DNA from: Planococcus rifietoensis
Lineage (GTDB): Bacteria; Bacillota; Bacilli; Bacillales_A; Planococcaceae
Direction: 5' to 3'
DNA length: 64,000 bases
NCBI RefSeq assembly: GCF_001465795.2
Contig: NZ_CP013659.2
Coordinates: 682,001-746,000, forward strand
Shown here: positions 14,628 through 47,309 of the stretch, in pieces
Layout of the letters: each line of letters starts with the position of its first letter
How positions within the stretch are numbered: position 1 is the stretch's first letter
Made by a program: the position numbers and the translations under genes
Notes under the pieces: generated by a model
Seen by the model: the letters and a program-made list of their open reading frames with translations, nothing else
What the model was told of the DNA's origin: nothing
The model's database searches: none

Positions 14628-15040
14628 GTGGTTTATTTTAGTGAATGCGATCCAAAAGTTAAATCTGGTAGTCGAAATGTTCTTTCCTTGAGATTCCGCT
14701 GCAAGGGGCACGCTTGAGGTCTGCAGGATGCAGGTCATGCAGCTGATGCGACAGGAAGTCGCGTTTTCAGCTGCCCGGGTACAGGGCGGGTGTTGAGCCA
14801 AGGTGGCTAATGTCACTGCGTTCGAACATCAGATAAAAAGCGTTGCTCCCACATCTGCTACGCAGATGCGTCGCAAATGAATGGACTCGGCTCCTCCTCG
14901 CCATCCATTCGCCCCTTTCCGCTCCATCTCTAGGTATAGAATAGAAATTCAAATGTTTTCTGCATTGAAATTATGTGAACAGTTTTGATTTGTTCGATAA
15001 ATGCGCGGAAAAGATGAATCATCCTTAATATTAATATTGA
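14628..15040. other. Gene-free stretch with short palindromes
   Basis: I find no credible gene. Several small palindromes are visible, for example catctgc/gcagatg with a 3-base loop near 14850-14870 and tgcgac/gtcgcg near 14748-14763. An open frame of 61 codons on the minus strand (14767-14952) has no ribosome binding site and no family resemblance. The GC content and structure suggest a decayed or repetitive intergenic element rather than simple spacer DNA. Confidence 0.5.
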
Positions 15041-32760: not shown

Positions 32761-32788
32761 ACACATAATAGCGGAATAATTGTATACA

Positions 32789-32871
32789 CCACAAGGGGAG
32801 CTTTGGCTGAGAGTGAACGAGTAAGTTCTTACCCTTCGAACCTGTAAGTTAACACTTGCGCAGGGATGTGG
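32789..32871 (+). promoter_or_regulatory. TPP riboswitch (THI element)
   Basis: The conserved THI-box sequences are present in order: GGGGAGC, CTGAGAG, ACCCTTCGAACCTG, and GCGCAGGGATGTGG. The closing helix P1 is ccaca/tgtgg. A strong terminator at 32890 follows, so thiamine pyrophosphate binding should stop transcription before thiT. Confidence 0.96.
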
Positions 32872-32889
32872 ATGGAAAACCGGCCCAAG

Positions 32890-44159: not shown

Positions 44160-45467
44160 ATGAAAACGGATGTGTTCATCGGCGGAGGGGGAATAGGCGG
44201 GCTGACGCTCGCATTGAAACTGGCGAGGCGCGGCTTTGATGTCGTTCTGGCCGAGCGCATGGCCGTCCGCTCGCCGACCTACAAGGGAGAGTTGCTGCAG
44301 CCGAAGAGCATGCAAGTATTCGATGGCCTTAATGTATACGATGCGATTTGCGATCGGTCCAATGAAATCAAAGTGCTCGATATGCTGGAACTGTCCAGCA
44401 CCTTGAAAGTGAAAGATCAATCGTTCATGGATTACAGTGTGTTGCCCGGAAAATACAACGCCGCTTATATGATCCATCACGAAGAGCTAAAGACCATCAT
44501 TCGGAAAGCGGCTTGCGAATACGACAACTTCCGTTACTTGAAAGGCACTGCTTGCAAAGGATATACCGAAAACACCGCCATTCTTCAAAAAGGAACCGAA
44601 AAGTTCGAAGTGGAAGCCAAGTTTTTCTTCGGGGCGGAAGGCCGGTCATCGGTGACCAGAAAAGCGATGGACATCGAAGTGAAGCAGACGACGTACAACC
44701 ATCATTTCCTGACGGTGACGTTTCCTCGGGCTGAGAACTTCACGGACGGCAAGATCATCTCGACTTACAACCGCTTTCTCGGTTTATTTCCGCTTCCAGA
44801 TGACCAAGTGCGCAGCGTCTATTTGATTCCGCCAGGGGATTACAAAACCTTGAAAGAAAAGCCGATCAGCCATTTCCATAAACTTTATACCGATTTGGCA
44901 CCGGCCGTGGACGGCTATGTCCAGCGCTTGACCGACTGGAAGAAAATCCAGTTGATGATCCCGGTTATGTATCATGCTGAATCCTATGTAAAGGGCAATA
45001 AAGCAATCATCGGGGATGCGGCACATGCTGTCCATCCGATGGCGGGAGAAGGCATGAACATGGCCATACAGGACGCTGACGTTTTGGGTGAGCTTGCGGC
45101 TGACATTTTATCCGATGGAAAAATCGACCCGGAAAATCTTAAGTGGTACGAAAAAGTGCGCTACCGCCGGGCGGACCATGTCATCCAGCTAAGCCATCTG
45201 GCGGCGCTCGCCTATTCATTCCCGTATCGTCCAGTCAGCTATTTGCGCCAACGCACTTTCGAGCGCATGGAAGAAGATCCGATTCTTCATTTCAAGCAAA
45301 TGTTGAATGTCTCGGGGCTTGGCTTATGGAAAGAGAATGTCCGGGACCGCTTTATCCAAGGCGGGTTCATGCCGGTCCGCGCGAAGGAACTGACAGAAGA
45401 CACGAAAGAACTGAAATACTACAAACCGGAAGATGACTACCCGTGGAAAGTGGAGGGACTTATATGA
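44160..45467 (+). CDS. FAD-dependent monooxygenase (UbiH/aromatic hydroxylase type)
   Basis: A 435-residue flavoprotein. The dinucleotide-binding GGGGIGGLTLALKLARRG is at the N-terminus and the second FAD motif GDAAHAVHPMAGEGMNMAIQD is near residue 285, the arrangement of class A flavin hydroxylases. The substrate is likely an aromatic or quinone-like compound. ATG 44160 lies nine bases after AAGGAG. Its stop overlaps the start of a methyltransferase gene (ATGA), so hydroxylation followed by methylation of one small molecule is plausible. No other biosynthetic gene is nearby. Confidence 0.87.
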   Translation: MKTDVFIGGGGIGGLTLALKLARRGFDVVLAERMAVRSPTYKGELLQPKSMQVFDGLNVYDAICDRSNEIKVLDMLELSSTLKVKDQSFMDYSVLPGKYNAAYMIHHEELKTIIRKAACEYDNFRYLKGTACKGYTENTAILQKGTEKFEVEAKFFFGAEGRSSVTRKAMDIEVKQTTYNHHFLTVTFPRAENFTDGKIISTYNRFLGLFPLPDDQVRSVYLIPPGDYKTLKEKPISHFHKLYTDLAPAVDGYVQRLTDWKKIQLMIPVMYHAESYVKGNKAIIGDAAHAVHPMAGEGMNMAIQDADVLGELAADILSDGKIDPENLKWYEKVRYRRADHVIQLSHLAALAYSFPYRPVSYLRQRTFERMEEDPILHFKQMLNVSGLGLWKENVRDRFIQGGFMPVRAKELTEDTKELKYYKPEDDYPWKVEGLI

Positions 45468-46462
45468 TCGATATAATGAAGATGGTAAAAGCAAGAACGT
45501 ATATGAAACGAAATGAGCCCTTCCTGTACAGCTGGCATGCTTATGTTGGCTACGAATTGGATCTGTTCAAGGCATTTGAACGCCCGATGACCCAGTTTGA
45601 TGTGGCGGATGCTTTGGAACTCGATGAGCAGTTGCTTGCGCAATGGGTAGCGATCGGCGTCTCGATCGGCTATTTAAAAGAAACCGGGCGCAACCGCTAC
45701 CAAATAAAGAACCGCTGGAAATTGCCGAAATCCAAAGGCAATAATTCATCGGGTGTATTGCTGAAGGAAATGATGGAACTGCACATTCCGACGCTTTTGG
45801 AGTACCCGAAAATGATGCGCAACCAAAGCCGTCTTCACTTTGATGAAGATGAGCACGCATCGACTGTCGCAGAAACGAGCCGTCTGCTTGAAGTATTGGC
45901 TTATCCGAAAATGGCCAAGAGATTGAAGGAAAAAGACTGCCGCCGTGTGCTTGATATCGGCTGCGGAGAAGGCGGCTACATAAAGAAATTGGGCCAGCGA
46001 TTCCCAACGACGCAATTCACGGGAATCGAAATCAGCGAAGAAGTTGTCGAGAAGGCGAAAGAACTGACAGCAAACCAAAACAACGTCTCCATCGAGCAGG
46101 CGGATTTGTGGAATTACAAACCCGAATCCCCACAAGATATGGTGATGCTCAATAACGTGCTGCATTACATCCCGCTCGAGAAGCGCCAGGCCTTGTTCAA
46201 GGAAATCAGCAGCTGGATTGCACCGGGAGGCATTTTCTCGGTCGTCACCCCAATCGCCGGCGGCCCGGACAGCCCGCCTTTCGCCAATGTCTTCAATAGC
46301 TTCTTCTCATCATTCGACAATCTCTACAGGCTGCCGAAAAGGGAAGAAGTCATCGAATGGGGCGAAGAATCAGACCTCGAAATCCTCAGCCTCCGCACCG
46401 TCATCAAAGAAGGCGGCTGGTACATCGTGCAATATGAAAAGAAAAGCGAGAGCGCCCGTTAA
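45464..46462 (+). CDS. SAM-dependent methyltransferase with N-terminal winged-helix domain
   Basis: A 332-residue protein. Residues 1-100 look like the dimerisation winged helix of small-molecule O-methyltransferases (FDVADALELDEQLLAQWVA, YLKETGRNRYQI). The SAM motif I is VLDIGCGEGGYIKKLG near residue 165, with motif post-I GIEISEEVVEKA. It probably methylates the product of the overlapping FAD monooxygenase. The last seven codons and the stop lie in the first unit of the downstream repeat array, so the native C-terminus appears to have been replaced by repeat sequence (KKSESAR). Confidence 0.87.
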   Translation: MIDIMKMVKARTYMKRNEPFLYSWHAYVGYELDLFKAFERPMTQFDVADALELDEQLLAQWVAIGVSIGYLKETGRNRYQIKNRWKLPKSKGNNSSGVLLKEMMELHIPTLLEYPKMMRNQSRLHFDEDEHASTVAETSRLLEVLAYPKMAKRLKEKDCRRVLDIGCGEGGYIKKLGQRFPTTQFTGIEISEEVVEKAKELTANQNNVSIEQADLWNYKPESPQDMVMLNNVLHYIPLEKRQALFKEISSWIAPGGIFSVVTPIAGGPDSPPFANVFNSFFSSFDNLYRLPKREEVIEWGEESDLEILSLRTVIKEGGWYIVQYEKKSESAR

Positions 46463-46560
46463 GCTTCGACAGGCATAAGGCGAGTTTCCGAAGCGGCGCT
46501 CTTTGCCGCACAGGAAAATTGACTTATGACCCAAGAAGCTGGGCGATCGAGCTGGACAAA
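46441..46560. repeat. Palindromic tandem repeat, unit 1 (120 bp)
   Basis: It starts gaaaagc. Nested pairs: gagcgccc/gggcgatc, agcttc/gaagct, cataag/cttatg, tttcc/ggaaa, and apical gcggc/gccgc. It overlaps the end of the methyltransferase gene. Confidence 0.9.
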
Positions 46561-46683
46561 GAAAAGCTGAGACAGCCATGTAGACCCGACAAGCACAAGA
46601 CGGTTTGCTGAAGCGGCGTTACTTGCCGCGTAAGCAAAATGGCTTGTGACCTCGAGGGTCTGGCTGTCGAAGCTAGCCAAAAA
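46561..46683. repeat. Palindromic tandem repeat, unit 2 (123 bp)
   Basis: The same plan as unit 1 with covarying pairs: gacagcc/ggctgtc, agaccc/gggtct, cacaag/cttgtg, tttgct/agcaaa, gcggc/gccgc. Confidence 0.9.
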
Positions 46684-46806
46684 GAAAAGCTGAAGTGGCC
46701 GTTCTGGCTCGACAGGCGTAAGCCGAGTCCCCGAAGCGGCGTATTTCAGCCGCACAGGGGAATTGGCTTACGGCCCGAGAGTCAGGCCACTGAAGCTAGA
46801 CAATAA
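46684..46806. repeat. Palindromic tandem repeat, unit 3 (123 bp)
   Basis: Pairs: agtggcc/ggccact, ctgg-ctcg/cgag-tcag (with a bulge), cgtaagcc/ggcttacg, tcccc/gggga, gcggc/gccgc. Confidence 0.9.
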
Positions 46807-46926
46807 GAAAAGCTGAAGCAGCCGTTTAGATTCGACAGGCATAAGACGGATGGCCGAAGCGGCGCTTTTTGCCGCACAGGACAGTTGGCTTATGACCCGA
46901 GAATCTGGTTGCTGAAGCTAGACAAA
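46807..46926. repeat. Palindromic tandem repeat, unit 4 (120 bp)
   Basis: Pairs: agcagcc/ggttgct (one G-T), agattc/gaatct, cataag/cttatg, gcggc/gccgc. The stem next to the apical hairpin has one mismatch. Confidence 0.88.
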
Positions 46927-47044
46927 GAAAAGCGAAAGCGCCCGTTTTTAGGAAGCTAACCTAAGGACGCGACGTCCTGTCGCAACGGTTAGCTGACCCA
47001 CATCCTGTGGCTCCTCGACAGGTGTAAGGCGAGTTTCCGAAGCG
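46927..47044. repeat. Broken fifth repeat unit with an inserted hairpin
   Basis: The unit begins like unit 1 (gaaaagcgaaagcgcccgtt). It is interrupted at 46947-47013 by a different hairpin (gctaacc/ggttagc, with ggacg/cgtcc inside), resumes with ctcgacagg through gtttccgaagcg and then ends abruptly next to the yfkK terminator. The right half is missing. Confidence 0.8.
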
Positions 47045-47050
47045 AATCAC

Positions 47051-47086
47051 AAAAAAAGCCCTGAAGCGTTTAGCTTCAGGGCTTTT
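47051..47086. terminator. Terminator of yfkK, bidirectional
   Basis: The stem agccctgaagc/gcttcagggct has A and T runs on both sides. It serves the minus-strand yfkK gene. Confidence 0.93.
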
Positions 47087-47087
47087 C

Positions 47088-47309
47088 TTATTTGCGCAAT
47101 GAACCGAGTTCAGAGGCAATGGCCTGCATTTCGTTCGGGCTGAAATTATCGCGATTTTTAACCATCTCGTAAATTTCACGCAAGTCTTCGTACTCGGACG
47201 TGTTGAAATGCTCTGCTTTCATTGCATCCACATTGACCATGCGCAGTTTCGTTTTTATTTCTTCAATCATAAAATCGACGTTCTCAGGTGATTGTTTGGA
47301 TAAATCCAT
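47088..47309 (-). CDS. yfkK: UPF0435/DUF1128 small protein YfkK
   Basis: A 73-residue soluble helical protein. [35 protein letters not shown] and the end [17 protein letters not shown] match the conserved B. subtilis YfkK family. The function is unknown. AGGA lies eight bases before the ATG. It is convergent with the repeat array. Confidence 0.93.

Follow-up and report, generated by a model that had tools for sequence, protein, structure and literature searches.

Organization of the array

The window, the whole stretch of 64,000 nucleotides (nt) that was analyzed, carries an open reading frame (ORF) for a putative methyltransferase that runs directly into an array of hairpin-forming units (Table 1). 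All 14 named loci that have this ORF come from Planococcus or Planomicrobium; Planococcus sp. A6 and P. citreus DSM 20549 are the nearest among them (98% identity each). The array consists of head-to-tail units at 46439-46924, followed by an incomplete fifth that extends to about 47044. TRF gave the array a period of 123 with 4.1 copies and 70% matches.

An earlier note, made from the sequence alone, had described four units of 120, 123, 123, and 120 bp, each folding into one long nested hairpin, and both statements were confirmed. The predicted fold energies of units 1 to 4 are -51.1, -57.5, -68.5, and -47.7 kcal/mol, with z scores of -5.0, -7.4, -8.5, and -4.7; for none of the units was any of 200 shuffled sequences as good. 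In all four the + strand folds better than the - strand. The fold of the fifth stretch (46928-47046) is unremarkable, with a z score of -1.7 and 7 of 200 shuffles equally good. The paired, compensatory differences that had been quoted are present in the sequence, and even within this small set of four window units, two-sided change has left the pairing intact at 14 of the 39 pairs predicted.

The array is not a simple local duplication because the nearest relative of each unit among 18 units of the same genome sits at a different locus (Table 1), and on this point the earlier note was right. Parts of the array recur in the same order elsewhere in the genome. The A-B order is found again at 3230686-3230929, and the B-C order followed by the Rfam family Bacillaceae-1 is found again at 2423508-2423833, which suggests block copying between loci.

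Table 1. Features in and around the array (positions in the window; relatives given by position in the window's own genome)
Feature	Position	Strand	Remarks
Upstream ORF, putative methyltransferase	45443..46462	+	339 aa; last residues and stop codon supplied by unit 1
Unit 1 (subtype A)	46439..46558	+	120-bp hairpin; nearest own-genome relative at 3230686, 84.4%
Unit 2 (subtype B)	46559..46681	+	123-bp hairpin; nearest own-genome relative at 2423508, 87.2%
Unit 3 (subtype C)	46682..46804	+	123-bp hairpin; nearest own-genome relative at 2423631, 84.6%
Unit 4 (subtype D)	46805..46924	+	120-bp hairpin; nearest own-genome relative at 2417766, 87.9%
Start of incomplete fifth unit, outer left arm	46925..46944	+	repeat family D6
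Bacillaceae-1 (Rfam RF01690) in left arm of fifth unit	46945..47011	+	71.8 bits versus gathering score of 35
Rest of fifth unit, middle-stem strand to apex	47012..47044	+	right half missing; repeat D4, 47015-47044, 93% to unit 1
Terminator-like hairpin 3' of array	47054..47086	+	inverted repeat; 14 pairs, T-rich tail

Dispersal of the repeat family

With unit 4 as the query, BLAST gave 22 matches, spread over 12 places of the 3.5-Mb single-contig genome. A covariance model was built from the 18 own-genome units (model R1) and searched against genomes of the genus, family, and class. R1 had matches in all 24 Planococcus genomes tested, the window's own included, with 8 to at least 89 matches per genome; it had none in the 16 genomes of other class members in the same sample. 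In the family 143 of 200 genomes (16 of 19 genera) had matches, and in the class 40 of 299 (21 of 118 genera), which supports the earlier statement that related units occur elsewhere in the Bacillales. For these two samples stricter filters were used and at most 17 (family) or 12 (class) candidates were scored per genome, so that the copy numbers are lower bounds. Model-based counts can also miss copies, since window unit 2, although in the training set, was not listed on the + strand by cmsearch and its place shows only a weak minus-strand match.

Members of the family are imperfect palindromes of about 121 bp in which the ends (AAGAAAAGC...CTAGACA) and certain unpaired bases are conserved, and they are located in intergenic DNA. 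A related subtype at two loci (L007, positions 1380-1500, and L237) has the outer ends of the units and a different inner part (CGACAAGCGCTGGAGG...ACCTCGAGGGGC), so the family is larger than what R1 covers. No unit match was found in searches of plasmids and of phages, collections in which records near the window's genome may be absent. The four complete units gave no gathering-level Rfam match; at a permissive threshold, the interval 46300-47200 gave seven matches besides Bacillaceae-1, all below their own gathering scores. Elsewhere in the window there is a TPP riboswitch at 32784-32883 on the + strand (60.1 bits).

Gene context and termination

We classified 53 clusters of units by their flanking ORFs, leaving out one at a contig edge (L085). 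Both neighbors ran in the direction of the units in 26 clusters and both were opposed in 18; eight clusters lay behind a codirectional ORF and faced an opposed one, and one was in a divergent context. Orthologous sites are included in these numbers, which are thus not independent, and a few classes may be wrong, as the script ignored ORFs under 70 aa and called genes by length alone. The strong co-orientation with transcription that the first dozen sites had led us to expect did not hold in this classification, as 18 of the 53 clusters are antisense to both neighbors. Starts at gene ends were frequent: 24 of the 34 clusters that follow a codirectional ORF start between -25 and +5 nt from its stop codon, versus none of the 18 antisense clusters on either side.

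A consensus scan for terminators, which found 6 sites versus 3.3 expected, gave no + strand terminator-like site between the ORF and the array, as the earlier note had supposed. The scan gave none within the array either; a T-run after the stem is absent from the transcribed strand. On the - strand there are four terminator-like sites. The note's suggestion that the array is a multi-hairpin intrinsic terminator of the upstream gene is, on this evidence, very improbable. Long GC-rich stems do stand right after the stop codon, and tails of the TTTTCTT type come after the outer stem on the - strand, but the + strand site at 47054-47086 lies past the array, and sense units also occur between atpG and atpD, where termination would be costly. 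The suggestion of a set of small RNAs is also unsupported, as there is no + strand promoter-like site directly before the array, although such a negative is weak evidence.

The fifth unit and Bacillaceae-1

The fifth unit had been called broken. It is incomplete, its right half being missing, but it is not merely broken, because its left arm holds a Bacillaceae-1 module. The window's own genome has 21 Bacillaceae-1 matches, of which the five best scoring lie in units of the array's family. By our reading the other 16, including one in the window at 14720-14785, lie in another composite repeat. In all 12 unit-borne copies examined, the module comes after the outer left arm; in nine of these a CGACAGG-type middle-stem strand is next to it, and in the remaining ones (L024, L027, and L099) that strand is altered or lost.

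The composite hairpin repeat just mentioned is of the gacggagtggaaggggg... type. It holds Bacillaceae-1 at the window site (- strand, 36.3 bits) and at L028 to L043, and it has many copies in the own genome. One copy is an apparent 183-bp insertion near G000:C1:2413420 that is present in G000 and not in G011, G020, G023, or G009. A third kind of host repeat, with Bacillaceae-1 in CCCCCACTGATTG / CCCGTTAATGCGGG-type hairpins, is found at L222, L233, L239, and L247.

Across the bacterial family, RF01690 was found in 89 of 121 genomes (87 above the cutoff), on both strands, with up to at least 38 matches per genome. Among 30 loci, at least four different palindromes serve as its host, again by reading. 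The stems of 34 distinct copies, mostly the best scoring of their genomes, comprise 578 cells, of which 562 are Watson-Crick pairs, 2 are G.T, 5 are A.C, and 9 are other combinations; many positions have several Watson-Crick types. With Watson-Crick pairs as varied as these, the near absence of G.U is easier to reconcile with a palindrome in DNA than with an RNA. The module of the fifth unit is thus most likely another mobile palindrome, one that came to lie within a unit.

Bacillaceae-1 was listed as a structured RNA by Weinberg et al. (PMC2864571). Gardner and Eldai proposed that its reverse strand binds CsrA, the strand being uncertain (PMC4333381). BSGatlas has eight Bacillaceae-1 structures in B. 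subtilis (PMC8208703), and a 2022 review counts the family among abundant sRNAs (PMC9029176). The passages of these four papers that deal with Bacillaceae-1 do not label it a mobile repeat.

Gain, loss, and rearrangement of units

The orthologous array locus was read in 30 of the 46 genus genomes with the upstream ORF. At 27 of the 30 loci a unit starts at the identical point, directly at the end of the ORF. By the model, 25 loci have one to four codirectional units, and two (G023 and G224) have only a partial unit. No unit starts at the ORF end in G003, G005, or G123; G005 has one unit further down, on the opposite strand. In G232 we read a hybrid that joins the left half of unit A to the right half of unit D.

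Species differ by whole units in other places as well. Comparing an 80-kb region with four relatives listed 33 length differences of at least 40 bp; seven of these are 122 to 124 bp and one is 243 bp, and the remainder are due to other sequences. In the gap between atpG and atpD (30 loci in 29 of 46 genomes, one unreadable; atpG was recognized from its translation), the number of units or shortened hairpins ranges from none to two. In G019 (L176) one complete unit is nested within another in this gap, a case that could help to define the exact ends of the element once set beside a sister species that lacks the nested copy.

Two or more units are present in 22 of the 53 clusters, and in 42 of the 53 a new unit start occurs within 18 nt after the cluster, compared with 5.6% at random places. 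Direct repeats of this kind, at the borders of units, would be substrate enough for units to be gained and lost step by step. Most of the sites that we compared are common to the relatives; no clean empty site was seen among close relatives in the 80-kb region or the atpG-atpD gap, and fresh jumps were not caught.

Search for a mobilizing partner and a target site

Two transposase families were considered as partners. Of the 46 genus genomes, 29 have PF01797 and 6 have PF13358, but units are near only 1 of 37 such loci, and no sharing of ends with an autonomous element of these two families was seen. The sole exception was a PF01797 locus with two units (L183); the other PF01797 loci had none. 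Two genomes, G017 and G008, have many units without PF01797. Neither family could be linked to the units. The 53 flanks revealed no consistent fixed target site or target duplication, and a TA target was likewise unsupported.

One PF01797 protein, of 201 aa (L187, 1471-2076), has palindromes of the GTCCCTGTGC type downstream at 2089-2335, a separate REP-like set. We take this protein and that of the own-genome PF01797 gene to be RAYT-like. The own-genome gene is flanked by other palindromes, not by units, and in this the units differ from REP/BIME repeats with their RAYT. Near G000:C1 about 2400436-2400553 there is a 127-bp insertion with hairpins in G000 and G011 that is absent from G020 and G009; its hairpins presumably resemble IS200/IS605-type ends. 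The units also seem to us to resemble an integron attC site, a likeness that we considered for mechanism only.

Covariation and strand asymmetry

In an alignment of 87 matches (A3; 86 distinct), 97.1% of 3,261 stem cells are paired, and 32 of 38 pairs have undergone two-sided change. None of 500 shuffles reached any of five measures, and shifting the partner by one to three columns lowered pairing to 26 to 46%. Internal loops and bulges are conserved as invariant unpaired columns. Because the unit sets consist of high-scoring model matches, well-paired copies are favored in them. Some process has kept the hairpin while its sequence changed. To that extent the earlier claim of selection on structure is supported. 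Covariation does not amount to proof of an RNA function, as will be seen from the antisense units.

On the + strand G.T outnumbered A.C, with ratios of 71:15 in A3 and 73:22 in A4, a less selected set (two conserved-G.U columns excluded). The excess was present in both GC-major and AT-major columns. When each 80% identity cluster was represented by a single unit (36 units; a separate 25% cut retained 36 of the 38 columns), the ratio was 41:9. In numbers of pair types, the excess of G.T over A.C was 26:11 (P = 0.02) for A3 but no more than 29:17 (P = 0.10) for A4. Between nearest-neighbor units (81 pairs), we counted 103 Watson-Crick/G.T, 28 Watson-Crick/A.C, 60 Watson-Crick/other mismatch, and 55 two-sided differences; this count used only units with standard pairs at 30 or more of the 38 positions (157 of 162), and the two conserved-G.U columns were kept.

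Splitting the counts by gene context, with those two columns again dropped, gave 48:12 for units behind a codirectional ORF and 25:2 for antisense units (Fisher P = 0.21). Selection in mRNA only is unsupported after this split: the asymmetry is present in antisense units as well, and the constraint is thus independent of the neighbors' mRNA. This weakens an RNA-only reading and leaves room for a cause in single-stranded DNA or for descent from master copies that had the property.

These results bear on two alternatives. The units could be primarily RNA elements, hairpin arrays in 3' untranslated regions (UTRs) or intercistronic gaps that are selected for mRNA stabilization or RNase processing and whose spread is secondary. 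The two-sided changes, the G.T excess on the + strand (also among cluster representatives), the better + strand folds of the window units, and the starts close to stop codons all count in favor of this. We consider this account unlikely nonetheless, as a third of the clusters (18/53) are antisense to both neighbors and keep the asymmetry, hybrid and collapsed units exist, and the asymmetry in pair types is slight in the less selected set. Still less probable is a purely mutational palindrome, in which template switching or conversion between the arms keeps the two similar and the structure is not under selection. Conversion of this kind could produce the 55 two-sided Watson-Crick differences between nearest neighbors and the nearly G.U-free stems of Bacillaceae-1 (2 of 578 cells), but the internal loops and bulges are conserved rather than corrected, and an excess of G.T in GC-major and AT-major columns alike is unlike the outcome of symmetric correction.

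Interpretation

The array is probably, with a probability of roughly 0.7, one of the sites of a family of short non-autonomous repeats in Bacilli that seems to be undescribed and is ERIC/bcr-like (MITE-like), the nearest families having been compared by description. The earlier note had set its structural reading against a missing covariation or a known transposon repeat. Covariation is strong and no named transposon was matched, yet the array behaves as a mobile repeat family.

We suppose that an enzyme mobilizes the units, which are non-autonomous, and that the hairpin is maintained as a single strand of + polarity. Copies once present would multiply, shrink, and form hybrids, probably via the direct repeats at unit borders. 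The units are kept as hairpins and are probably in part co-transcribed; a unit transcribed with its neighbor would place a 38-pair interrupted hairpin in the mRNA and might thereby change the decay of the neighboring message. We lean toward a mild effect on decay or processing. A role as a 3' UTR stabilizer, which the earlier note had raised, or as a processing site is possible, but the pairing supports an RNA function only partly.

More tentatively, one can imagine a nested system of hairpin DNA modules in Bacilli that are recognized as single strands. The 121-bp units would recombine or transpose in single-stranded form, folded and always of one polarity, and Bacillaceae-1 would be no RNA gene but a second such module, a mobile hairpin that inserts into these palindromes. 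On such a reading one would expect G.T to be tolerated and A.C avoided whatever the neighboring transcription, extrahelical bases to be conserved, and blocks to run head to tail in a conserved order. We hold this reading to be doubtful.

The family is a widespread structured repeat of Bacilli, apparently unnamed in the open-licence literature searched, that occurs where genes end and between the genes of operons, for instance in the atpG-atpD gap. It also allows a catalogued sRNA family, Bacillaceae-1, whose reverse strand is the one proposed to bind CsrA (PMC4333381), to be interpreted anew. A simple test on sequence alone, the contrast of G.U with A.C counts in sense versus antisense copies, can help to separate selection in mRNA from a DNA-level cause of covariation.

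Comparison with known repeat families

We found no description of the repeat for Planococcus or Bacillales in the portions of the open-licence literature that our searches returned. Two traits of MITE-like elements of the ERIC/RUP/Correia type are seen in the units: many dispersed noncoding copies of about 100 to 200 bp, and, on predicted folding, a transcript that forms a long stem-loop.

Among the most similar systems are the ERIC (IRU) repeats of enterobacteria (127 bp), which, as described in passages of PMC2229807 and PMC10969869, are similar in size, form a long imperfect hairpin, lie between genes, and vary in copy number between species. In Yersinia, according to the same passages, ERIC elements lie behind genes, are co-transcribed, and lower the stability of the upstream mRNA in an orientation-dependent manner. 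ERIC is listed with a target duplication and TA ends, neither of which could be shown consistently in the 53 flanks of the units, and the likeness is one of description, with no sequence relation shown.

The bcr1-bcr3 repeats of the Bacillus cereus group share with the units a host among the Bacilli, MITE-like character, and a place in UTRs and operon gaps, and bcr3 shares their proximity to housekeeping genes (PMC3446304, in its relevant passages); as the comparison is by description only, the units and a bcr family could be identical. B. cereus transcripts with bcr3 are reported there to have longer half-lives (3.6 versus 2.5; 39 genes), an effect that the authors could not separate from gene function. 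Bhal-1 and other stem-loop families (PMC2267715) are also dispersed stem-loop repeats, one of them in Bacillus halodurans, but Bhal-1, again compared by description from part of that paper, is 74 bp long versus about 121 bp for the units. REP/BIME repeats with RAYT (PMC3733652, as excerpted) are dispersed palindromes in mosaic and nested arrangements, as the units are, although the units are about three to six times longer than REPs of 20 to 40 bp. Bacillaceae-1 itself lies within the fifth unit but is a module in its own right; none of the four complete units matches it at the gathering level.

Unlike ERIC as presented in the passages cited above, the units form tandem blocks of different subtypes in a conserved order and carry a nested Rfam module. 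The uncommon features of the new family are these ordered blocks, the nesting of a catalogued "sRNA," and a strand asymmetry that is independent of gene context.
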